From Nymphaea colorata (lineage: Eukaryota; Streptophyta; Magnoliopsida; Nymphaeales; Nymphaeaceae), in NCBI RefSeq assembly GCF_008831285.2, contig NC_045139.1, positions 25,460,412-25,524,411 on the forward strand: a stretch of 64,000 nt of DNA, read 5' to 3'. This document shows positions 7,239 through 63,360 of this stretch, piece by piece (the first letter of the stretch is position 1; every line of letters begins with the position of its first letter). Under the pieces are notes generated by a model. That model had not been told where the DNA came from. It did not search any database and worked only from the letters and a program-made list of their open reading frames with translations. The position numbers and the translations under genes are program-made.

Positions 7239-10200
7239 CACACACACACTCACACACACATATATATATATATAGTTAGTTACCTGTAAAATCTGTTATA
7301 TAACCATCTCAAACCCTGTCCACATTTTCCTTTATTTTAATTTTTTAGTCATTACCATTATGTAAACAAATGTTATATTAGGGATATTTTAGTCCAAAAT
7401 TTGTTATTTGAGGGTGCCCATCCTTTTGACATAAAATTTTGGACAGAGGTATGAGGGTGACATCCTTTTAAGAGATGGAACATGAGAGAGAGAGAGAGAG
7501 AGAGTGAGGTACATGAAAACTGCCTGCCTTTTTTTTATCGCAAAGAAACCAAACTGTACTAAGTCACATGGGTACGGGTGCGGTTCAGGTACAGATACAG
7601 AGATATGGATACAGACACAACAACTTTAGAAAATGTGGGTACGGGGGCATGGCAAGAATATATATATTTATATCATTGTCACAGAAAACGCGTATTATTA
7701 AAAAAAAACATGTATAATAAGTGATAAATAAGTCAGACGTACAAAATGACATTTAGGCATGCCTTTTGTAAAAAAAATGCCAGAAAATAAAAAACGTGAA
7801 AAAAATGCATATTAGACGTGTTTTTTTTCGTATTTTTTATTAATTTTTATTTTTTTATAATTTTGAGGATCTATTAAATGTTTTAAATTCTTTAAAAATT
7901 CGCCAAGATTTTCCCGATATATTATCGAGATATACAACTTTACCGTATTATACCTGAGAAATTCCTCACCATATAATACCCATACACGATATATGTGATG
8001 ATAATTTATATACACAATGGGACTTGGAGATGGTACGTCGTGAGACGTGGAGAGAGAGAAAGAGTAGCAGCCGCGAGACTTGGAGAAAGAAAACTTGATT
8101 ATTCACTAACCCTAATCTCCATTATAAAGAGATTAGGGTAGACTACGTCAACCAAAAATAAAGGAAATATTAAAGAGGTCTTGTAACTCTTTAATATTAC
8201 AAAGAGCCACCTAGAAACATAAATTCTTTTAATTCAACACTCCCTTTCAAGATGGACCATACATATTAAACATGTTCAGATTGTCACAACATCTAGAAAA
8301 ATCACCAATAGGGAGAACTTTGGTGAAGATATCTGCAGCTTGATCTTCTGAAGGAACATGAATAGTGGCAATGGTTCCTCCTTGAACGAGATCCCGAATG
8401 TAATGGCAGTGCACTTCAACATGTTTAGTTCTCTAATGGAAAACTGGATTGTTTGCAATTTATGTGGCTGCTCGATTGTTACAATACATTTTCATGGGAA
8501 GCGGAATCGACACGCTTAGGCTAGATAGCATGGATCTAGCCCAAGTCATTTCTGCTGCAGTTTGAGCCATAGCTCTGTATTCGGATTTTGCATTAAATCT
8601 TGACACCACACCTTGTTTTTTGCTTCTTCACGATATAAGGTTGTCTCCCACAAATACACAGAATCCTGTGATAGATTTCCTATTTTCGACTAAGCCAGCA
8701 TAGTCAACATCACTATAGGCTTCCACTTCTAGGGTCTTGCCTTTTGTGAACAAAAAGCCTTTGCCATGAGACGATTTTAGATATCTGACCACCATCAAAG
8801 CATCATCCCAATGAACTTTCCTGGGTTTTTCCATAAATTGACTTAGCTTTCCCCACTGCAAAGCTTAAGTCACACGGGTGCGGGGAAATGGGTGCGGACA
8901 CGACAATTTTCACAGTTGTGGGATACACGGACACTGCAAATATAATATTCTAAAAAATAATAAATTGAAAAAAAAAACATTAAATTAATAATTCACTTAA
9001 AGTCACAAACAAAACATTGTTTATCACAAAACATTGTTCATCAATATCATCATATGAGGTGGTCGTGGAACGAAACTCAGAAAAAAGAGAACAGGACCTC
9101 ATGACTGAAATTTCAAAGAGACGAAAATGCCGAAAAAAATGACAGTAAACAACAATTTAAATAAGCTCCCAAATCTTGAAAAGAATCATAAATCTATCCA
9201 TGCGACAGCTTCTCCTCCACGCCGCCAGCGAGAAACTAAAAAACAAAAAAGCAAATACAAGACACAAAACCAATGAGATCGTGCAATCAACCTCGCCCCA
9301 CAACTGACCAGCAGAGAGCAGGAAGAAAGAGGGCAATCGTTGTTGTCGTCGTCCACCGAAGAAAGAAAGCAAAAAAAAAAAAAACCCAAATGTGCCTCCA
9401 ATGCAAACCCTAACTTCATAAACCGACCAAAACAGTTACTTGCTACTCGCCGCCTGCCGCCGAACGTTGCCGTGGGTCGTCGATCATCGTCACCATCGCC
9501 CGCCATCATTGTCGTCGTCTCCGAAGTGAACTGCTCACTGCTTGTCGCCGGTCAGAGAGGTCGAAGACTCAAAGGTGAAAAGTGAAAAAAAAAAAGTCGA
9601 AAAGCGTAAGTTTTATCGAGTCATTTGACAGTTTGGATCGGATTTGACCCAGACCCGATCCAGAACGTGTCCTGCCGCGTCCCGTGTCGAAATCGGCATG
9701 TCGGAGTGTCGACGTCGATACGTGGGCGATTTTGCCGCGTCCACATGTCGTAGTGCAAAGCTAATGTCTGGTCTTGTCACAGTAACATAAAGGAGTTTTC
9801 CAATAAGGGATCTATATGATTCAGAATCCACTAATTCTGCTTCGTCATCATGAAAATGTATGTGTGGATTCATAGGTAGACTAATCGGTTTAGCTCCTAG
9901 CATCCCGATGTCCTGCAATAAATCAAGAACATACTTTCGTTGAGAGAGAACGACACCATCTCTATTGCGAGCAACCTCTATTCCCAAGAAATATCGTAGT
10001 GGACCAAGATCTTTCGTCACAAAGTGTTTTTGAATAAACAGCTTTGCAACAGAAATTTTTTGATCAGTCACCTGTCAGGATAATATCATCAACATAAACC
10101 ACTAGAATGGTGATACCCCTGGAAATCTTTTTGATAAACAGAAAATGATCAAGAGGAGATCTCGCAAAGCCACACTTTAGACCACCTCGAAGAACTTGTG

Positions 10201-13200
10201 AAACCACGCACGAGGACTCTACTTGAGTCCATAAATAGCTTTCTTCAGTTTGCACACTTTTCCACACTCCTCCTGTTGTTCAAACCCTGGTGGTTGTTGC
10301 ATATAGACAGTCTCATCGAGATCACCGTACAAAAATGCGTTTTTGACATCAAGCTGATACATGTGCAAGTCATGGTGTACAGCCACATAAATAATAAGAC
10401 GAATGGTTCCCAACCGAGCAACCGGAGAGAAGGTCTCAAAGAAATCCACTCCGTAGGTCTGCGTGTAGGCCTTAGCAACCAACCGAGCTTTGTATCATTC
10501 CACAGAACTATCTGAATTATATTTCACTATGAATACTGTAGAGATACGAACAAGAAGAAGAGGAAGAGAAGCAATGATCACGATGTAACGTGGAAAACCC
10601 TCAACACGAGGGAGAAAAAACCACGAATGAGGAGGAGTTGGTGCCCACTAGCAGCCAGACTCTCTCTCTCTTAAGATTATCATTAACACTTAAGGATTAG
10701 GGTTACATGACTTAAGTAGAGCCCAAAACGGGCTACAAGGCGGGTCGGGTATGGATCCGGACCCGAAACCCACAATCTATCAACACTCCCCCTCAAGTTG
10801 GGCGTACATATCAAACATGCCCAACTTGGATACATTCCTCTCAAATGAAGCTGAAGGAAGAGCTTTCGTCAGAACATCAGCAGTTTGGTCTTCAGACTTC
10901 ATGTAAGGTAAGATCAACTCTTTCGCATCAATCCTTTCCCGAATGAAGTGACGATCAATTTCAACATGTTTTGTTCTGTCGTGAAGTACAGGATTGTTGG
11001 CTAAGTTGATTGCAGACTTGTTATCACAATACATCTTCATAGGTCCTTCAATCTCTATTCCAATGTCAGTCAACAATATCTTCAACCATAATAACTCTGA
11101 CACTCCCATAGCAACTGCCCTATATTCTGCCTCTGCACTGGATCTAGAGCAAACATCCTGTCTCTTGCTCCTCCATACAACAAGGTTTCCTCCCAAGTAG
11201 ACACAGTACCCTGTAGTGGATCGTCTGGTATCACCACAACCTGCCCAATCCGCATCAGAATAGCCCTCGATTTCCACAGTCTCTTGTTTCACATACAGGA
11301 GTCCCTTACCAGGATTTTTCTTCAGGTAGCATAGCACTCTGTCCACAGCCTTCAGATGTGCATCGGTTGGCGCATGCATGAATTGGCTCAAAACATTCAC
11401 CGCAAAGGTGATATCAGGTCTCGTGAGGGTAAGATAAATTAGCTTCCCAACCAAACGTTGATATCTTCCCTTGTCTTCTTCACAGAGAGGCTCTCCATCT
11501 CTGAGACTCAACTTGTGCCCAGTGTCAAAAGGGGTAGGAGTAGGTCTACATCCCAATTTACCAGTTTCTTCCAGCAGGTCTAATGTATATTTCCTTTGGT
11601 TTAGTACAAGACCAGTACTAGACCTAGCAACCTCCATACCAAGAAAATACCTTAGTTTTCCAAGATCTTTGAGGTCGAATTCTGTAGCCAGTAACCCTTT
11701 TAGCTTGATAATCTCTTCCTCATCATCTCCAGTAACAATCATGTCATCTACGTAGACGAGCAGGAGAGTAACCTTGCTCTCCTTCTTCTTCACAAACAGA
11801 GTGTGATCTCCATTTCCTTGTTTGTATCCATGACGTATCATCACTCTTCTCAGTCGTTCAAACCACGCTCTGGGCGATTGCTTAAGGCCATACAATGCCT
11901 TTTTCAGCTTACAACACATTTCTGGTTCTTCATATCCTGGAGGCATATGCATATATACTTCTTCTTCGAGGTCACCATTGAGGAATGCATTCTTAACATC
12001 CAGTTGATACATCTTCCACTCCTTCATCACAGCTAGGGATATGACCACCCTCACAGTCTTCATTTTCGCAACAGGAGCAAAGGTTTCCAAGTAATCAATT
12101 CCATATTTCTGGCTAAACCCCTTGGCCACAAGTCGAGCTTTATATCTTTCAACACTCCCATCTGGTTTGTACTTGATGGTATACACCCATTTGGATCCAA
12201 CTAGGTGAGCGGCTTCAGGAATCTTCACCACTTCCCATGTCAAGTTTCTTCTTAGGGCATCTATTTCTTCTTTCATTGCATCGGCCCACTTGGAGTCACT
12301 TTGAGCTTCAGCGACAGTCCTGGGAATCACAGCCAAAGAAAGAGTAGAAACAAAACACTTGTAATCTTTCCCAAGTCTGGAATAAGAAACAAAATTACCA
12401 ATAGGGTGTTGAGTACATGACCTGACACCCTTTCTCAGGGCAATGGGAAGATCGTCATTCTTCTTTTCAACCTCATCATGGGTCTCCACGGTCTCCTCGG
12501 TAGGACTTGGTTCATCCAGGGAAGGAGTGGCATTGGGATTGGAAGTAGATCTAGCATCACAAGTCATCACCTCTGTCCGAGTACCTCGTCTAGAGTAGAA
12601 CTGTCCAAACAACTGAGGGCCTTCCTTCTCAATGCTATTGTCACCCCTTTCCTCATTCTCAGGCACATCAACAGTATTAAGTGATTCTGTTTTCTTGTAG
12701 TCCAAAAAATCTATAAACTGAAGTTCCTGTCTCTGAGAATACTCTTCCCTGCCCACAGACTGCTCCCCCTGAAGAGGATTCACACCAAAGTAAGAGGCAT
12801 GTTCCAAGAAGGTAACATCCCTCGTAACATAAGCTCGACCAGTAATAGGATCAATACATTTGTATCCTTTTTGCGTAGGGGAGTATCCAACAAAGACACC
12901 TTTGATAGACCTAGGATCAAGTTTCTTGACATTTGGACTGTGATCATGGATAAAACATACACAACCAAAAACACGAGGAGGAAGAGGAAATGGTGGACGA
13001 CTGCCAGGAAGCAACGAGTGGGGAGTCCTACCATTCAAAACACGACTGGGCATGCGGTTAATAAGATAGGCACTAGTAAGAACTGCATCACCCCAATAGT
13101 GTTTAGGAAGATTTCTCTGAAACAAAAGAGCCCTGGTGACATTAAGAAGTTGACGATTTTTCCTTTCAGCTACCCCATTTTGAGGGGGGGTGTAACTACA

Positions 13201-16200
13201 GGATGTCTCGTGAACAATCCCCCGTTGTCTAAGAAACTCCTCAACAGGCCGACACATGTACTCACGGGCATTATCGGACCTGAAAGTTTTAACATTCGCA
13301 CCATACTGGGTATGCACAAGAAGAATAAATGTCTCGATGATTCGAGGAACCTCGCTGCGGTCTTTTAACAAGTATATAAATGTAGCACGAGAGAAATCAT
13401 CAATGAAAGTGATAAAATACTGGAAACCTTGACGGGTATGAATGCCCGAAGGTCCCCATACATCAGAGTGAATCAGAGAAAAAGCTTCATTAGCACAACT
13501 AGAAGAAAGAGGGTACGAAGCCCTCACATGTTTGGCAAACTGACAAACATCACAAGAAATGGAAGACACATCAAAGGAGGAACACAAGTCTGGAAACAAA
13601 TGTTTCAAAATCCCAAAAGGTAAATGCCCAAAACGTTCATGCCAGTACATAAAAGACTGAAGACAATCTTCTCTTCTCTTATCTGTCTTGCGGATCGCTG
13701 TCAACAGAGCAGTAGCCACACGTATGGGAAGACGATATAATCCATCAGAAGCTAAACCAATCCCAATCCTCTTCCCTGTCACCAAGTCCTGCAAAACACA
13801 ACGATCGGCAGAGAATATAAGTTCACAATTCAATTCTTTAGTAAGTCTACTGACTGATAAGAGATTTAAAGGAAACTGGGGAACATGTAAAGCGCCCTGC
13901 ACATGAAATTTGTCCAACAAGGACAGAGTGCCTTCGCCTGCCACACAGGTAGAGGAACCATCTGCAAGAGAAACACGTTCCCTTCCCGAGGACAACTTAT
14001 ACTCATGAAACAATTTTGGATTACCTGTCATGTGATGAGTAGCACCACTATCGACAATCCATTCCCCCACAGAAGAGTTACCTTGATTGCCAATAGCTGC
14101 AAGAGCATGATTAGCTGTAGTTCCCTCTGAGGTCTCAGTCTTGTTGACATCGAGCCTGCCCAAATAAGCCCTTAGTTCACGAAGCTGGTCAGCAGAAATG
14201 GAGACTTTTTCTCCACTAGAGGCTTGCACCTCAGACACGGGCGTTCTCCCAGTCAAAGATCTCCCTCTGTTCCCCTTCTTTTCTGGATGAAGATCCCAGC
14301 AATAATCCACAGTGTGACCTGTCTTCTTGCAGTGAGTGCACCGGCGAAGAGACCTAGATGGGCCGCCAGGACCACGACTCACGAGAGCAGATCTCTCGTT
14401 ATAGGGCACAAGTTCCCTCTTCCCTTCTTTTGTAACAAGCCTTCGCTGTTCTTCCGCTTCAACACAGGAGTACACATCTTCAATACTGGACACCTCCCCT
14501 GAATTCAAAATCTGACTTCGAACACCTTCAAACTCATCATTTAAACCTGCTAAAAATAAGAACCATAGAGCGCCTGATCATGGGGACAATGCCAAGGAAT
14601 ATCAGAATGATAGTCAAGCTCTTCCCACTTGGCTTTCAAAGCCCCATAGTACTCTGCAACAGACGAGGTCCCTTGTCGAATGCCATAGACTGTCTTCATT
14701 ACTTGGTAAGTACGAATTGCGGTCTTCTTTTGGCCATACATTTGCTCGAGGACCACCCACATGTCTCTAGCAGTCTTCTTCCGAAGGATAAGGGGCTGAA
14801 TATCGGCGGAAACAGAATTGACAATCCAAGTTTTCACTTGATTATCCTCAAGAAACCAAGTATGCCACACATCACTTGTTCTTGCTGGTTCGGGGTTGCT
14901 CCCATCAATATAGGCCATGCGACCACGACCAGCAATCCCCATGGTCATAGCAGGCGACCACGAGAAATAATTATCCTTGGTGAGGCGAAGAGTGATGACC
15001 TGCATGGGAACATTCTCCGTTCTAAAAGCCCCTATTTCAGTGGGATTGGTGTTGACGGTTGACGAGGAAGAGGCTGCCATAATCACAGACCAGTAGGCAG
15101 CAAGGGCAGCAAGAAGCAATCACACGATACAACACCAAAAAACGGACAGAGAGCAGGAAACAGAACCAGGCAAAGCGGCGCGGCGCTGGGCGGGAACAGA
15201 CCAGGCAGTCGGCGCGGCGCTGGGCGGAAACAGACCAGGCAGAGCGGCACGGCGCCGGAAAAGGACACGGCGTTGGGCGGAAAAAGACCGCCGCTGGACA
15301 GGTCGTCGTTTGGGCAGGCCGACGCTGGGCGGAAGCAGCAGAACGGGAACGCCGCTGGGCAGGCCGACGCTGGGCGGAAGCGGCTGCGCTAATCAGGGCG
15401 TCGCTGGGCCGGTTGTCGCTAGGCGGAGACGGCGGAATCCTGATCGGCGTTGATCAGGGCGGCGCTGGGCGGAGACGGCGGCGGGACGACAGACGACGCT
15501 CGGGCACGAGCGTCGGGCACGGGCGAGACGATGAACAGTGTCGGGCGATTCTCCTCTAACACGGGCAAAAGACAACCAAAAACGCCGGAACTTCACGGCT
15601 CTGATACCATGTAGAGATACGAACAAGAAGAAGAGGAAGAGAAGCAATGATCACGATGTAACGTGGAAAACCCTCAACACGAGGGAGAAAAAACCACGAA
15701 TGAGGAGGAGTTGGTGCCCACTAGCAGCCAGACTCTCTCTCTCTTAAGATTATCATTAACACTTAAGGATTAGGGTTACATGACTTAAGTAGAGCCCAAA
15801 ACGGGCTACAAGGCGGGTCGGGTATGGATCCGGACCCGAAACCCACAATCTATCAACAAATACCCACTTAGAGCCAACAATGTTACAATCAGGAGAAGGA
15901 TCAACAAGTTCTCAGGTGCCTCGCTGAATTAATGCATTCATCTCACCTTGCATAGCCTGTCTCCATTGGGTATCTAATAAAGCCTACTGATGACACGTAA
16001 GAACTATATGAGCAGTCAGAGCTTGAATAAACTGTTGCATATTTTTACCAACAACGTCAGTAGACACAAAATGAGATATAGGATGAAGAGTACATTGTCG
16101 CTTGCCTTTGCAAAGAGCAATAGGTAAGTTTTGACAGGGATCAGACGAACTAAGGCTACTCACTTCAGACGAACTTACCTCCTGAGAAGCAGTTGGCGAA

Positions 16201-19187
16201 GGATCATGAGATGGATCCTGTCGACATGTGTAGATCAGCGGAGGATCACGAAACTTGGAGACTACAATTGGAGATTCGTTAGAAGGAGATTCAAAAGAGA
16301 ATGATTTCAAAGGAATAGGAGGAATAGGTAGTGGCTCTAGCGATGGTGGCATCTCAGTAGAGATAGGAGAGGAGCTATAATAAGGCTTAGACTCAAACAA
16401 TGTGACATCCGCACCGATATACTCATTTTGAGTCAAGGGGTCAAAGCATTTGTAGCTTTTATGGATTTTGGAGTAGCCTATCAAGATACACTTAATGGCT
16501 TGGGCACCCAATTTATCACGTGTGGGTCCAAGTATGTGAACAAAGCATGTGCAACCTACTTTGAAAGCCACGGGAAACAAGGGTCGTTGTAGGTGCACAA
16601 GTTTAATAGGAATCTTGCTGTCAATGGAGGATGAGGGTAAACGGTTGGTCAAGTAACAAGCAGTGAGGATGACATCTCCCCAAAAGTGTGCAGGTAAATT
16701 AGTATGAAGCATTAGGGAACGAGCCACATTTAAAAGTTGGTGATATTTTCGCTCAGCTACTCCATTTTGTTGGGAGGTATGGGGACAGGCAAACTAAGGA
16801 TAAATGTCGTTATCAGAGTAAAACTTTATTAAGGTAGATGTCTTGAACTCAAGAGCGTTATCAGTGCAAATGCTTTTAACAAGAATACCAAAGTGGGTTT
16901 TATTTCAATAATAAGGTTTTTGAGAGTCCATACGACTTCAGACCTTTCCTTCAAAAGGGAGACTCAAGTGACTCGAGGACAATCATCACAATGACAAGGA
17001 AATAACGAAATCTTGACCTACTAGCAACTCTGCTAGGACCACACACATCAACATGAAGAAGATCAAATAGTCCACAATTGGACGGACTAAGACTCGATAA
17101 ATAACTGTTACAGGTGTGTTTCCTTAGTTGACAGGCTTCACACTTAAATGACTCTGGTATTGAAAGATGAGGAAGAAGGTGATGGAGCTTGGAGACAGAT
17201 GGATGACCAGTTTGAGATGCCATTGGAAGGCGGAGGACAATGAGGTGAACGATGATGCTGCAATACCCACTGGATTCGATAGGAAGTAGATGCCCCCTTT
17301 CTCATAGCCTCCACCAATCGTCTTCCCAGTTTGCAAGTCCTAAAATGATAAACCAAAGTCAAATGTAACATGACAATATAAATTATTAATCAATTGTCCA
17401 ACTGATAACAGATTTGTGGGAAACTTAGGAGCATATAACACATTAGGAATTGTCATAGACTGAGAAACCCATAATAGGTGATCATCTACCATCTACAAGT
17501 CTTATATGACGTGCCTGAGGTAATGAGTGTAGGACAGTAAACATAGAAGGTCTACTACAAAAGTGTATCGATGCCCTGAATCAATAATCCAAGTAGTACC
17601 TGCATCATGTGGGACAGTATCAACGGACATAACACTGTTTATCATGACTGTAGAGGCCGATGGCTGGGTAGATCTGTGTGTCAGGAAGTCCTCATACTCT
17701 GACTTGTTGATACTCACAGCCACTGTCTCAGAGTGAGAAGAAGATAAAGACCCATCTACCACTGATGACGCTACTTGGGCAGATCTAATAGGAGACTGTA
17801 AAGAATTCTTGCCCTACTTAGATGCAACATTTCTTTCTAGGGGTGCAGCGGAAGGACGACCATGTTTATCCCAACATCTGTCTTCCAAATGCCCTATTTT
17901 CCCACAATAGGTGCACTGAAATCTCCCTCGACCTCCTCCTAACCCTCGACCTATGCCTCTCCCCCTAAATGAACTGCGTCCACAACTTCTTGAGGCTGCC
18001 AAGGCAGAGGCATGGATATCACTAGAGGGTGAAGAAGAGTCTGTTGTAGGCTTCAGCTAGGTCAGGGAATTCTGCTCTAGTCAACATTTGCGCCTTTGCT
18101 ACTGCGTATTCAAAAGAGAGACCCTGCAGAAACTTCGCAACCATGGACTGTTCACCATGAGTCTTATGGCATGTTAGACATGGGGGGGCGTAATGCTTTA
18201 AGTCGTTTATAGATCGACTTGAGGGAAGCGAAATACTGAGCAAGACTCTGGTTGCCCTGTTGCAAATTAAGTAATTCCTCCTCCACCTGCAAAATCTTGC
18301 TAACATTCTTGTCATTCGAGTAAGTTTGTTTCAGAAAATCCCACATTTGTTTGGCAGAAGTACAAAATGCAATAGTGGAAGGAATCTGTGGTTGCAAGCT
18401 ATTCATGATCCAAAACATGACAATATTATTATCTTCCTTCGATGAAACATATTTCCCACTCTTTTCCACAGGCTCATCTTCTTCGATAACATGCTCCTTC
18501 CAATGTCCAATCACAAACATCATAAACACACGAGACCAAATTTCATAGTTAGATCCATCTAACTTTACAGTAGAACCATAGGAGAATGGATTTCATCTGC
18601 TTTTAACCTCATGAAAAAAATCAGTTTTGTGATTTTCAGCCATCGCAAATCTGCCCACAAGCGATCAACCACCACCAGCAAGAGAGAATATATATATACA
18701 TATAAGTAGAGAATGCGACTGATCAGCAATAACAAATGTCCGACACCACACAGCAACGTTAGATGTGCATCACTTCTCCCACACAAACTTGTAAACAGTC
18801 AGACAGTAGAAAAGGATAAAAGAGTGAGGATGAAGTAGCCCTCCTTAAAAAAAACACCCCACAATAGCAGACTCTTGTCCAACTGCTGACAGCACCAACG
18901 ATACAAATAGAAGACTGCTGTCCAACTGTTGACAGCAACCTCATGACAAAAGACAGCAAACCAACGACAAAAAAAAAAAAAAAAAAAAAAAAAAATCCAC
19001 ACTGCTTGTGACTGTTGTCCAACTTCTGACAGCACCAACGGTTCAAATAGAAGACTGTCTGCTCCAACCAACAATTTGTCTATTTATGCATCTACCGCTG
19101 CTGTACACAGATTATTTTCCACTAATCATGAATAGTGACAACAAGAAACATTCAACATAAACTACCGCAGACTCCCACACAGCTGCG

Positions 19188-39560: not shown

Positions 39561-40904
39561 TAGTTAGTCTTACAAATGTTTTTTTAGAAGAACATCCTAA
39601 AGAAAAAGTGAAGTATTATACCTAGGCATTTAAGTTATAATGAAATTAACATTGCTTGTATAGTAAAAAAGGGGCACCTATAGGCTTAAACAATTCACAA
39701 ATGCATAGTATTCAAAGTTAAGTCAAGCCTTGGAAAGAAAAATATCTAGAAGGTGCATTTATGATAATTCTATTTTTGTAAATAAAAAGTGAAAAATATC
39801 ACATGCTTGTTTTCATAGATGAAATTAATATTGCAAGTGATAATGGTAATAAAATTACATATGTCAAAAAATATTCACATAAGCCATTGATATTATAGAT
39901 CTAGAGAGGTTGGAACATTTTTGTAGAATTGAAATTGGACAATCTAAGAAAGGCTTATACTTCTCCTAAACAAAATATGCAGTAGATTTCTAAATAAGGT
40001 CCAGAAGATGGTGAAGAATCCCTATGTCAATATATTATGATAATAGTGTTTATCCATGTAGCTGCAACCAATCTAATTTTTCATGAAAGAAAAAACCACA
40101 TAGATTGGTTAACTGTCCTTTTGCAAAAAACAAAGTTCAAAATAATAAGATAATCAATCCCTTCACCTCCATCACAAAACAATTAGAAGATATATCACTA
40201 GTGCCCTCCCAAGAAATTAAATTTGTTACATATGCTTTGAACAAGCTAAAAATGTAAAGTATGTTAAGACATGCTTAATTGTCAGCCTAAGGGAGAGCAA
40301 TGAATTAGCAAGATTTTTTGACACCAGGATTGAAGAGGGCATTTCTTGCCCAAGTATCAAAGCATCACATGACCTTTGAAGTTTTAAAGATAGCTTTTTG
40401 TTATCCAATGTGCCTCACGTTCATCTCTCACTTAATGACTGCTTAGGATAGCTTTCAAATTATTAAAGTGATTCTTGGTGTTTATAAGATGACTTTTGGT
40501 ACTCAAGGTGCCTCTTCTTAGTTTATCCAATAAATGTGTCACCTCTTGTAGTCATCTAAATTCACTTACATGTAAGTGAGACTGCATAATCAAAATTAAT
40601 ATCTTTGTTGAGCCCATGGATGTAGATCTTATGTCAGTGTGTGTGTGTGTGTAAATATAATTATTATGGTTCCTTATCTTATGACTGAACCACAAGAAAT
40701 TTTCCGTTCCTTACTTTTTGTTTCTTATTTTTTGTCATGTTTCTATGAATTGTTTGTGTTTTAGTTTGACATATCAAAAAAAGAATCCAAAGGTTAACTA
40801 TTGATAAGATCTTAAAATCTAACAAGTGGTAGTGACCATGCTCTGCCATTCCAATGGTCTCTATGACCCATCAAAGACTTTAGAGCCTTGCAAATTGAAC
40901 CTGA
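39561..40904. other. Intergenic region, no recognised gene
   Basis: AT-rich sequence between two transposons. Short open frames have no family resemblance. Confidence 0.55.
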
Positions 40905-41330
40905 GGGCCCGTTTGATGGGCGGGTGAAATTTAACGCGGTAAATTTACCATGGTAAATTTTTCTGAAAAAATTTACAGGATGAAATTTCTCCCTCTTCCA
41001 ATCTGAGGCCCTATTTGATGCACAGGAAGAATTTACCGTAGTAAATTTAACCATGTTTGATGCACATGAAGAATTTAACATGGTAAATTTAACTAACAAG
41101 AAAAAAGGGGAAGGATCGAACACAGTTGCTTTTGAAAGTTAAGTTCTCAGCAGCTTTAAAGAGATACATCATTTTTGCAACAAGAGACATCAAAAACTAC
41201 AGCTTTCTGCGGAAGCTATATTACAACAAGAGATACATCATTTTTGCCTTTATTTTCCCTGGAAGAAAGAACTCTAGCAGAATCTGAGACTGTGGGGATC
41301 ACCTCAGTAAGAAACCACGACAACACTGGG

Positions 41331-41949
41331 TTATCTTGTGAACTGTTGAGCATGAGATGCATCCACTTCGGACCCCAACATAAATCTCCCAGTGCCACGA
41401 TGGAAATTGTTCAACGATGACATCACATCGAAGTTGAAATTTTGGCCATCTTTTTCTTTGACTCTGTAATGATCAGGTCGGTTGCCCATAATTCCATTCC
41501 CATAAAAAGGTAAAATCCCAGCAGATTGAACTGGACAGTTGATCCCTGAATTGGGAGCATTGCCACCATGGACCTGTCTCAACATGTTGTCTGCTTCTGC
41601 TTGATTTTGCTTGTGAAGGGAACTGTTTTCAGCAGCTTGACTGATCCCCACACCCAGGTCCAGACTAACTGCATCAGGTCCTCTAGAATAAGGCAATGCC
41701 CTGTTAACCTCAATCTGATTAGGTGGCATTAGCATAACAGGATTCAGAGACACCTGCATATTGGTATTCAGAGGACTGAGGTTCTGCACTGGCATTGGTG
41801 CAGATGTTTCACGGTTGGTGGAACTGGAAGTGGGTACATCAGGATTATGTTTTCCCTCGTATGTTGTAATAACAGACTTTGGGTCATGTGAGGCTCTCTC
41901 CACATGCTTCCTAACAGGGCATCCAGCATTAGTGCATTTGTAGTAACTC
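41331..41949 (-). pseudogene. Captured last exon of a group I WRKY factor
   Basis: After the acceptor TTGGCAG|GAGTTAC the exon encodes [20 protein letters not shown] and then [14 protein letters not shown], followed by about 170 residues to a stop at 41331. The splice position is the conserved phase-2 intron of the WRKY C-terminal domain. The zinc ligands C-x4-C are kept, but the final HNH is HNP, so the last zinc-binding His is lost. The upstream exon with the WRKYGQK heptad is absent from the element and its surroundings. The frame is otherwise open, so capture may be fairly recent; it could be spliced only if joined to another transcript. Confidence 0.85.
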
Positions 41950-42985
41950 CTGCCAACAGTAAAGCATTAATGAAAAACAACCTATATTTGAATGCAGCTA
42001 AATTCAACAGATCGAAACCAAAAATTGAAAACTAAATAACAGATTTTCAAGCAAATCGAAAACATGACAAGAAAATGTATTAAACGCCCAACTTATGCTC
42101 AAAAAACGCCCAAATCAGACGCCTATACACCTCATTCAACCACAGGGCAGCAAATCATACTGCATCATCATTTAACCTGTACAGCCAAGGAGTAAGCAGG
42201 GTTTCTGCCTTTCCACAGAACAAAAGAAAGGTAGAGCTTGATGAGTCTGTTCTAGCTCCAAGCTTTTACAAGAAAAACACAAGAACATTCAATTGTCAAT
42301 CTAATTGGAAAGCACAAGTTAATAAGTTAATGCATTTGCGAAGAAACCAGTCAACTGCTAAATGTACAAACTTAACAAAATCAATCTCTGTGACAAGAAA
42401 CCCTCACAAAAGAAAAAGGGTATAGAGAAATAGACTGGAGCTTAGGAAAAAAAATTCTTTCACAGTAGCCAATTTAAAAACATATCAAAAGCGTTCTCCC
42501 AATTACTGAAACGAAACGCTACCACTGAAAGGGATGAAAAGAAATTGGCGGAAACACGCACGCGTAGCCAATTTAGAAACATATCAAAAGCGAATGAAAT
42601 GCTCAATTTCTTCAACTCATCAGCTTTTAAAAAGTGAGTGTAGATATCGAATAGAGGAGAATAACATTTCATGATTGAACAACAAGGCCTCTCAGGGAAT
42701 GCTCTCGATGGCAAAAAATCAAACAGGATAGAAACACAACAATTTGGGCGTTTCTGAAAGGGACAAAGCGATGGAGAAACCCTTACTTGAGAGCAGCGAC
42801 TGAGGCGTTGGTGAACCAGCGAAGGAGCGGAGCGGCGATGGCGGATGCTGACCAGTCTTCCCTGCCGGTGAGATGCCAGGGAAGTTTCTTTGTGAGGGAG
42901 GAGGCCTGAGAGATGCCAGGGAAGTTTCTTTGCAAGAGAGGAGGAGCTGCGGAGGGAGTGAAATGCGACAGGAGGGGAGGGTGTC

Positions 42986-43121
42986 GAGCGGGTGAAATTT
43001 CACCCGCTCAAAAGTCCGAGCTTTGAGCGGGTGAAATTTCACCCGCTCCCTTTTGCGTTAAACGGGTGAATTTCACCCCGTTTGATGCACTTTTAGTCAG
43101 GCGGGTGAAATTTCACCCGCC
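42986..43121. repeat. Three palindromes in the right subterminal region
   Basis: Perfect palindromes with arm GAGCGGGTGAAA lie at 42986-43009 and 43025-43048, and one with arm GGCGGGTGAAA at 43100-43121; a partial copy lies at 43060-43078. They face related motifs at 40915-41095 near the left end. Confidence 0.92.
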
Positions 43122-43173
43122 CGTACCATTTTTCCCCTCCCCTCTCATTTTACCCCGGCTATCAAACGGGGCC

Positions 43174-43559
43174 TGAAAGTGAAGGGGAGCCAGTCTAGCT
43201 AGACCTATTTGACAATTGACACTAGTTTCATAGAAGGTGCAAATATTTTTCCATGACTGCTTTATGTTCTTTGTTGGTTAACTAACTTTTTGGAAATAAA
43301 TAACTAATATATATATCTCTCTTTATCTCTCTCTTTCCCTATATATACATTTAGTTGCACAATGATCACCCATCATTGAAAAATGAACTATTTTAAACAA
43401 AGTGAAACAAACAATCTCGTAGTCCTGAAATTTGTAACATTTTTTGGATCAAGATGAATTGCCAATGTTGTAGAGTTTCCTGCAACATGAATGCACAACA
43501 AATAGGATAGAGAAAAAACAACAAAAAGAACAACTACTGGTTTCACTTCACCTTTAGTT
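43174..43559. other. Spacer between TIR element and hAT remnant
   Basis: No gene seen; AT-rich with a short TA/CT simple sequence near 43308-43345. Confidence 0.5.
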
Positions 43560-63102: not shown

Positions 63103-63360
63103 GGGGCCGTTTGATAGCATGGAGTTATGGAATTGGAAATATATTTCTGGAAATATATTTCTTGGAAAAAGAGAATGAGAAAAATTTTTCCGATTCCCAT
63201 TTTGATGAGTGTGTGATAACTCAAAAATATATATCCAGAAAAATATTTCTGTGTTTGATTTTTAAGAAACATATTTCCAGATTTTCAACTAACACCATAT
63301 TTTCAGATTTTCGTATGGATTTCCTCATACGAGTTTGCAGGGCTCTAACAGACGAAGGTA
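63103..63360. mobile_element. Left end of a GGGGCCGTTTG-type TIR element
   Basis: GGGGCCGTTTGATAGC preceded by TTAA matches the right terminus of the WRKY-carrying element (GGCCCCGTTTGATAGCC). Repeated GGAAATATATTTCTGG-type inverted motifs follow. No opposite end was found in the window, so the right boundary given is arbitrary. Confidence 0.45.

Follow-up and report, generated by a model that had tools for sequence, protein, structure and literature searches.

The window (the whole 64,000-nucleotide stretch of DNA analysed) contains a 2,269-bp non-autonomous element (positions 40905–43173), which we consider, with a probability of about 0.93, to be a PIF/Harbinger element of the Pack-PIF kind in which genes for a transposase or a Myb protein are missing and the 3′ portion of a resident group I WRKY gene is found instead. 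The observations behind this reading are the ends of the element and its target-site duplication, the parental loci, sibling copies, nucleotide changes shared by the copies, and relatives that carry other cargo or a transposase. The features of the element and its immediate flanks are, in window coordinates:

40902..40904, no strand: left copy of the target-site duplication, TGA (3 bp; most relatives have TTA or TAA)
40905..40924, plus strand: left terminal inverted repeat (TIR) of PIF/Harbinger type, starting GGGCCCGTTTGATG, 17/20 positions matching the right end
40905..41093, plus strand: left subterminal region, conserved in the family, with direct repeats
41098..41151, minus strand: fragment of the parental downstream flank, 85% identical
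41187..41981, minus strand: captured parental segment (795 bp, 96% identical), made up of 32 bp of native intron, the last exon and sequence beyond the stop
41331..41949, minus strand: last exon of a group I WRKY gene, with 205 codons before its stop and no internal stop or frameshift
41841..41843, minus strand: Pro codon CCT where the parent has the His codon CAT for the last zinc ligand of the WRKY finger; common to all three elements
41950..42786, minus strand: putative chimeric intron (837 bp; predicted splicing) from the element donor GTAAGG, conserved in relatives, to the native WRKY acceptor TTGGCAG
42212..42439, plus strand: fragment of a dispersed genomic repeat (228 bp), 93% identical to its best copies
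42787..42989, minus strand: element leader exon with a 5′ splice site (its start putative), homologous to the leader of transposase-bearing elements
42986..43122, no strand: subterminal palindromes GCGGGTGAAATTTCACCCGC, with homologous stretches in relatives
43154..43173, minus strand: right TIR, GGCCCCGTTTGATA
43174..43176, no strand: right copy of the target-site duplication, TGA (3 bp)

The first-pass annotation had placed the element between positions 40905 and 43173, inside a 3-bp repeat and with 17-bp TIRs; the bounds and the repeat stand, with TGA on both sides, but the inverted ends (GGGCCCGTTTGATGGGCGGG and GGCCCCGTTTGATAGCCGGG) are imperfect and match at only 14 of the first 17 positions. 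As a control for chance, pairs of ends matching at 17 of 20 positions and bearing a matching 3-bp flank were sought after dinucleotide shuffling of the window; 60 shuffled sequences yielded 36 of them in total, all with at most 10 G/C in the 20-bp arm, against 15 G/C in the real arm. Five other pairs in the unshuffled window reached the same threshold, all of them A/T-rich or lying within TA repeats. The left TIR is identical or nearly identical in family copies, and its start resembles that of the melon AndroPIF TIR (GGGCCCGTTTG). The left end also recurs internally, as AATCTGA|GGCCC.., at window positions 41003–41020 and in most copies scanned, with L042 and L044 lacking this internal copy; the TGA preceding it is a family feature, distinct from the TGA at the flank of the window copy. 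A further PIF-like TIR (GGGGCCGTTTGATA), preceded by TTAA, is located at window positions 63103–63116, with no partner up to the window end.

The exon content of the element is clear. An open reading frame at 41331–41966 on the minus strand (211 codons) matches the Pfam WRKY family (profile positions 21–57 of 59, E = 3.8e-13) as well as solved WRKY domains; of the 14 frames of at least 60 codons overlapping the element, it is the only one with a Pfam match over the curated cut-off, and the element is absent from the 150 genome transposase matches scored (of 307 candidates), in agreement with the earlier claim that no transposase is present. The exon starts at position 41949, directly after a TTGGCAG acceptor that is identical to that of the parental gene, and is open for 205 codons; a complete last exon with its native acceptor and an open frame of more than 200 codons had both been correctly recognized in the first-pass annotation. 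The intron boundary is of the R-type phase-2 kind described for group I WRKY genes (PMC8744262), with the acceptor and the split Arg codon the same as in the parent; the zinc finger is of the C2H2 type, with Pro in place of its last His in the element. This change from HNH to HNP (CAT in the parent, CCT in all three elements) had been taken for the single obvious lesion; the substitution is real, but it is not the only defect, as the half of the domain that contains WRKYGQK is encoded by the preceding parental exon, outside the captured segment. A functional WRKY protein encoded by the element would thus be unlikely, because WRKYGQK is absent and a zinc ligand has been lost. No relative of the exon was found in IMG/VR or among bacterial and archaeal genomes, as expected for a plant gene.

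A DNA search of the element's own genome (a 407.8-Mb assembly of 783 contigs) identified two parental loci and two sibling elements, and a protein search identified, among 53 matches, five places with 94–100% identity, which correspond to the three elements and the two parents. The parental loci, both on contig C7 (at 20.85 Mb and 7.87 Mb), are 96% identical to element positions 283–1077 and have the same intron boundary. They contain an exon encoding the N-terminal WRKY domain, an exon with the C-terminal WRKYGQK that ends in NPNPR, an intron of approximately 1.8 kb, and the last exon with HNH. The two loci (L011 and L012) share 99.7% identity over 9.6 kb, lie in opposite orientation 13 Mb apart and have identical last exons; they represent either a recent duplication or an assembly duplicate. 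Three related WRKY loci (L028, L029 and L030), 60–64% identical to the captured exon, are located within 230 kb on contig C8.

The two siblings, L009 (C2, 20.03 Mb) and L010 (C7, 21.78 Mb), match most of the window element at 94–96%, have the same ends and are each flanked by their own TTA/TTA duplication, showing that the element has moved as a unit; both retain one more piece of the parental downstream sequence than the window element does. In all three elements the exon is open for 205 codons. Thirteen nucleotide changes relative to the parent, including the His-to-Pro change, are common to the three copies, indicating a single origin of the captured exon and subsequent amplification; part of these changes may alternatively have arisen in the parent. 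The dispersed repeat fragment inside the putative intron (42212–42439) has three fetched copies on C15 and C6 that are alike at 90–99.5% over 2.2 kb, and its source repeat is thus longer than 228 bp.

Membership of the PIF/Harbinger superfamily is supported by both the ends and the relatives of the element. Both ends (GGGCCCGTT and GGCCCCGTT) show the G(N)5GTT start given for the 14–25-bp TIRs of this superfamily (PMC2213677). With the left 189 bp of the element as a genome query, at least 41 matches were obtained from the 40 scored of 568 first-look candidates, which sets a minimum for the copy number. Eleven copies could be read at both ends (the window element, L009, L010, L013, L015, L017, L018, L019, L039, L044 and L067); eight of these have identical 3-bp flanks, seven with TTA or TAA and the window copy with TGA, which has the typical length but departs from the canonical TTA/TAA, and three (L017, L039 and L044) have no clean duplication; the TGA and these three copies speak against the assignment. 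Two further copies were left out of this count, namely L041, for which the right end was taken from L036 at the same place and TAA/TAA flanks are obtained only with one extra G at the left end, and L040, which has a degenerate left end and a TCA right flank. One relative, L067 (5,251 bp), has the same ends, a TAA duplication and, in the same orientation as the leader, matches to DDE_Tnp_4 (8e-18) and Myb_DNA-bind_3 (1.3e-10); L068 carries the same pair of genes together with the leader, and no ends were found within the sequence retrieved for it. The window copy has neither gene according to Pfam. The shared type of ends, the relatives with DDE_Tnp_4 and Myb genes, and the likeness to AndroPIF together place the family in PIF/Harbinger, and the window copy, being without a transposase and holding host coding DNA with identified parents on C7, is a Pack-PIF. 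The earlier suggestion of gene capture outside the Pack-MULE class is thereby borne out, with parents, siblings and family relatives all found in the same genome, although the Pack-PIF class itself has already been described.

Several relatives carry cargo other than the WRKY exon. L039 and L041, two loci whose ends are of the family type, contain a glycosyl hydrolase 81 (GH81) C-terminal domain (1.1e-23 and 1e-24). Weaker matches, both below the respective cut-offs, were obtained for L015 (a short acyl-CoA-binding (ACBP) match, 8e-4, 20 bits against a curated cut-off of 28.3) and for L013 (to reverse transcriptase, 0.002). Loci L053–L055 carry a coiled-coil frame, which we take to resemble kinesin-12, an assignment to which Pfam adds no confirmation; four frames from L054 and L055 matched no Pfam family over cut-off, and the same search assigned no family to two further frames from L015 and L013 or to ten frames from L014, L016, L017, L040, L042 and L043. 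The WRKY, GH81 and weak ACBP cargoes are all in sense orientation relative to the leader, and the reverse transcriptase piece is not; three out of three in sense would occur by chance once in eight, which is suggestive only.

The leader is a GC-rich stretch on the minus strand, approximately 330–545 bp from the right end, which in most copies ends CTCTCAA|GTAAGGGTTTCTC. Of 12 distinct loci examined, 10 contain the donor motif GTAA[CG]GGTTT, among them the two with a transposase; L013 and L044 do not. The count is based on 13 sequences, two of which represent the same place, and the fraction is biased upward as several of the loci had been identified through their similarity to the leader itself. 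Among loci outside this count, which include L017 and L018, the motif is present in L018 and missing from the examined L017 stretch; L043 does not match a stricter form of the motif. In L067 the transposase and Myb frames lie downstream of the donor on the same strand, and the simplest reading is that the leader would be the 5′ part of the transposase gene, retained when the body was replaced. A 40-bp tandem duplication (88%) lies inside the leader exon (window 42864–42943) and is also present in L009. A frame at 42783–43007 on the minus strand had been considered as a second captured coding exon; this candidate was dropped, as Pfam and PDB searches returned nothing and the stretch is the family's own leader.

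The combination of a leader bearing a 5′ splice site with cargo in sense orientation suggests that spliced chimeric transcripts may be formed. In the copies with the WRKY exon, joining of the donor to the native acceptor would make the WRKY frame continuous with an open frame of the leader. In the predicted leader–WRKY product of the window copy, the first AUGs within the exon are out of register and the sole in-register AUG stops after 11 codons; in L009 the in-register AUG stops after three codons, and in L010 there is none before the exon. A frame of 154 codons in L009, different from the WRKY frame, runs from an AUG near the right end across the predicted junction. Since none of the three copies has an AUG from which the WRKY frame stays open as far as the exon, a leader–WRKY transcript would less likely yield a working WRKY protein than a non-coding or regulatory RNA, or unrelated or tail peptides. 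More generally, the family might act as a mobile exon trap, in which cargo replaces the transposase body while the leader exon and 5′ splice site remain as the 5′ region of the transposase gene, so that host fragments in sense orientation and bearing an acceptor become expressed second exons; this is a tentative proposal, which we consider possible but rather doubtful from the sequence features at hand. If it is true, cargo should be sense-oriented and acceptor-bearing far above chance across the family.

One further consequence of such transcription would be that sense WRKY transcripts give rise to small RNAs acting on the parental WRKY genes. The 795 bp at 96% identity to the parents and the strong terminal palindromes would favour a role of the element as a source of regulatory RNA, but inside the element the WRKY part was not seen again in inverted form, and we regard this role as improbable.

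Selection may have acted on the exon, but is not needed to explain it. Under domestication, leader and WRKY exon would form a chimeric gene maintained for a protein derived from the WRKY C-terminus, as might be suggested by the exon that is open in all three copies with no indel in 618 bp, by dN/dS values between copies of 0.39–0.62, and by the donor and acceptor that would link the WRKY frame with the open leader frame. Exon divergence between the three copies is 1.9–3.1%, as compared to 3.0–3.4% (0–4 indels per pair) for the leader and intron side and 2.5–5.1% (2–3 indels per pair) for the 3′ side, the latter over only 237–494 bp. The 26 private exon changes (counted per copy, with three sites that changed in two copies counted twice) comprise 16 nonsynonymous and 10 synonymous changes and no stop; under a neutral simulation, 20% of runs gave as few nonsynonymous changes and 50% were free of stops. 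These changes are compatible with neutral drift, the youth of the copies being enough to explain the open frames. The zinc ligand is moreover lost in all copies, WRKYGQK is absent, and no AUG opens the WRKY frame in the leader-exon product, the 154-codon frame of L009 being a different one; domestication is therefore very unlikely.

A decayed resident WRKY gene with TIR-like flanks arising by chance would also show a native acceptor and an open exon, but queries with N- and C-terminal WRKY domains found no second convincing WRKY exon in the 64-kb window (next-best E = 0.11), where nearby upstream exons would have spoken for such a gene, the parental loci are at other places, and the two siblings with the same ends and clean TTA duplications refute it. 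Gene capture is classic for MULEs, yet a Pack-MULE or Pack-hAT is just as firmly refuted by L067, with the same ends and DDE_Tnp_4, by ends that fit PIF, and by flanks at which only TGA matches, with no 8- or 9-bp duplication.

The Pack-PIF reading implies a sequence of steps. A single capture event, to which the 13 common changes point, would have taken place inside a pre-existing PIF element, and the product would then have been mobilised in trans by related autonomous elements, while the retained leader exon and 5′ splice site would permit a spliced leader–WRKY transcript. Proposals for animal Pack-TIRs are gap filling on the one hand and fork switching with later transposition on the other (PMC8277862); for plants, the mobilisation of neighbouring insertions has been proposed (PMC8903248, PMC13317346). 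The present observations favour none of these capture mechanisms.

With regard to its surroundings, exons at window positions 2120–30168 (minus strand) resemble those of a gene for Integrator complex subunit 9, with Pfam matches to IntS9_C and Lactamase_B_6 only below cut-off; if this identity is right, the element is located approximately 11 kb upstream of that gene. A Copia-like retrotransposon with an open frame of 1,265 codons was recognized by eye at window positions 10783–15119 (minus strand), and fragments of Copia type were identified by Pfam at 9616–10074, 15987–16793 and 18167–18592.

Pack-type elements are thought to shuffle exons. Capture of host exons and transcription from within the element are known for Pack-MULEs, which belong to another superfamily with longer TIRs and a longer (9-bp) duplication. 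The Pack-PIFs that Gisby and Catoni (2022, PMC8903248) reported for maize and rice share with the window element the PIF TIRs, the 3-bp duplication and captured coding DNA; there, the duplication is TTA or TAA in 52% of the PIF elements in rice and in 81% of those in maize. The present case differs from these in the plant concerned and in that the parent, siblings, relatives with different cargo and relatives that combine a transposase with a similar leader are seen together. Grapevine Pifvine-3 (PMC2528002) is likewise a PIF element with pieces of host exons and introns, sometimes in multiple copies, but in the passages available its captured DNA lies in a long 5′ region and its family has ORF1 and a transposase, both of which the window element is without. 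Melon AndroPIF (PMC11161486), with the TIR noted above, encodes a nuclease and a SANT protein, as in L067; it is of autonomous type, with no cargo described in the passages available from that source, whereas the window element is non-autonomous and carries cargo. Soybean Tgm-Express1 (PMC1947982) also contains captured host exons, which were shown to be spliced into chimeric transcripts; it is, however, a CACTA element, and its exons are spliced with those of the interrupted host gene and not with an element leader. A passage of that source, probably with respect to Pack-MULEs, puts transcript starts at TIRs or inside the element at 91%. The parts of the literature available, including the WRKY passages of PMC2528002 and PMC8616336, contain no WRKY exon inside a Pack-PIF, which is no proof of absence. 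Pack-PIFs, transduplication by PIF elements and splicing of captured exons are thus known in kind, and this example is unusually complete: parent, siblings, relatives with other cargo and transposase-bearing relatives can seldom be compared side by side from one starting copy. Within one family they mark out the likely steps from an element with its own genes through loss of the coding body and capture of a host 3′ exon to amplification, and the conserved leader and donor predict leader–cargo splice junctions and a sense bias of the cargo.
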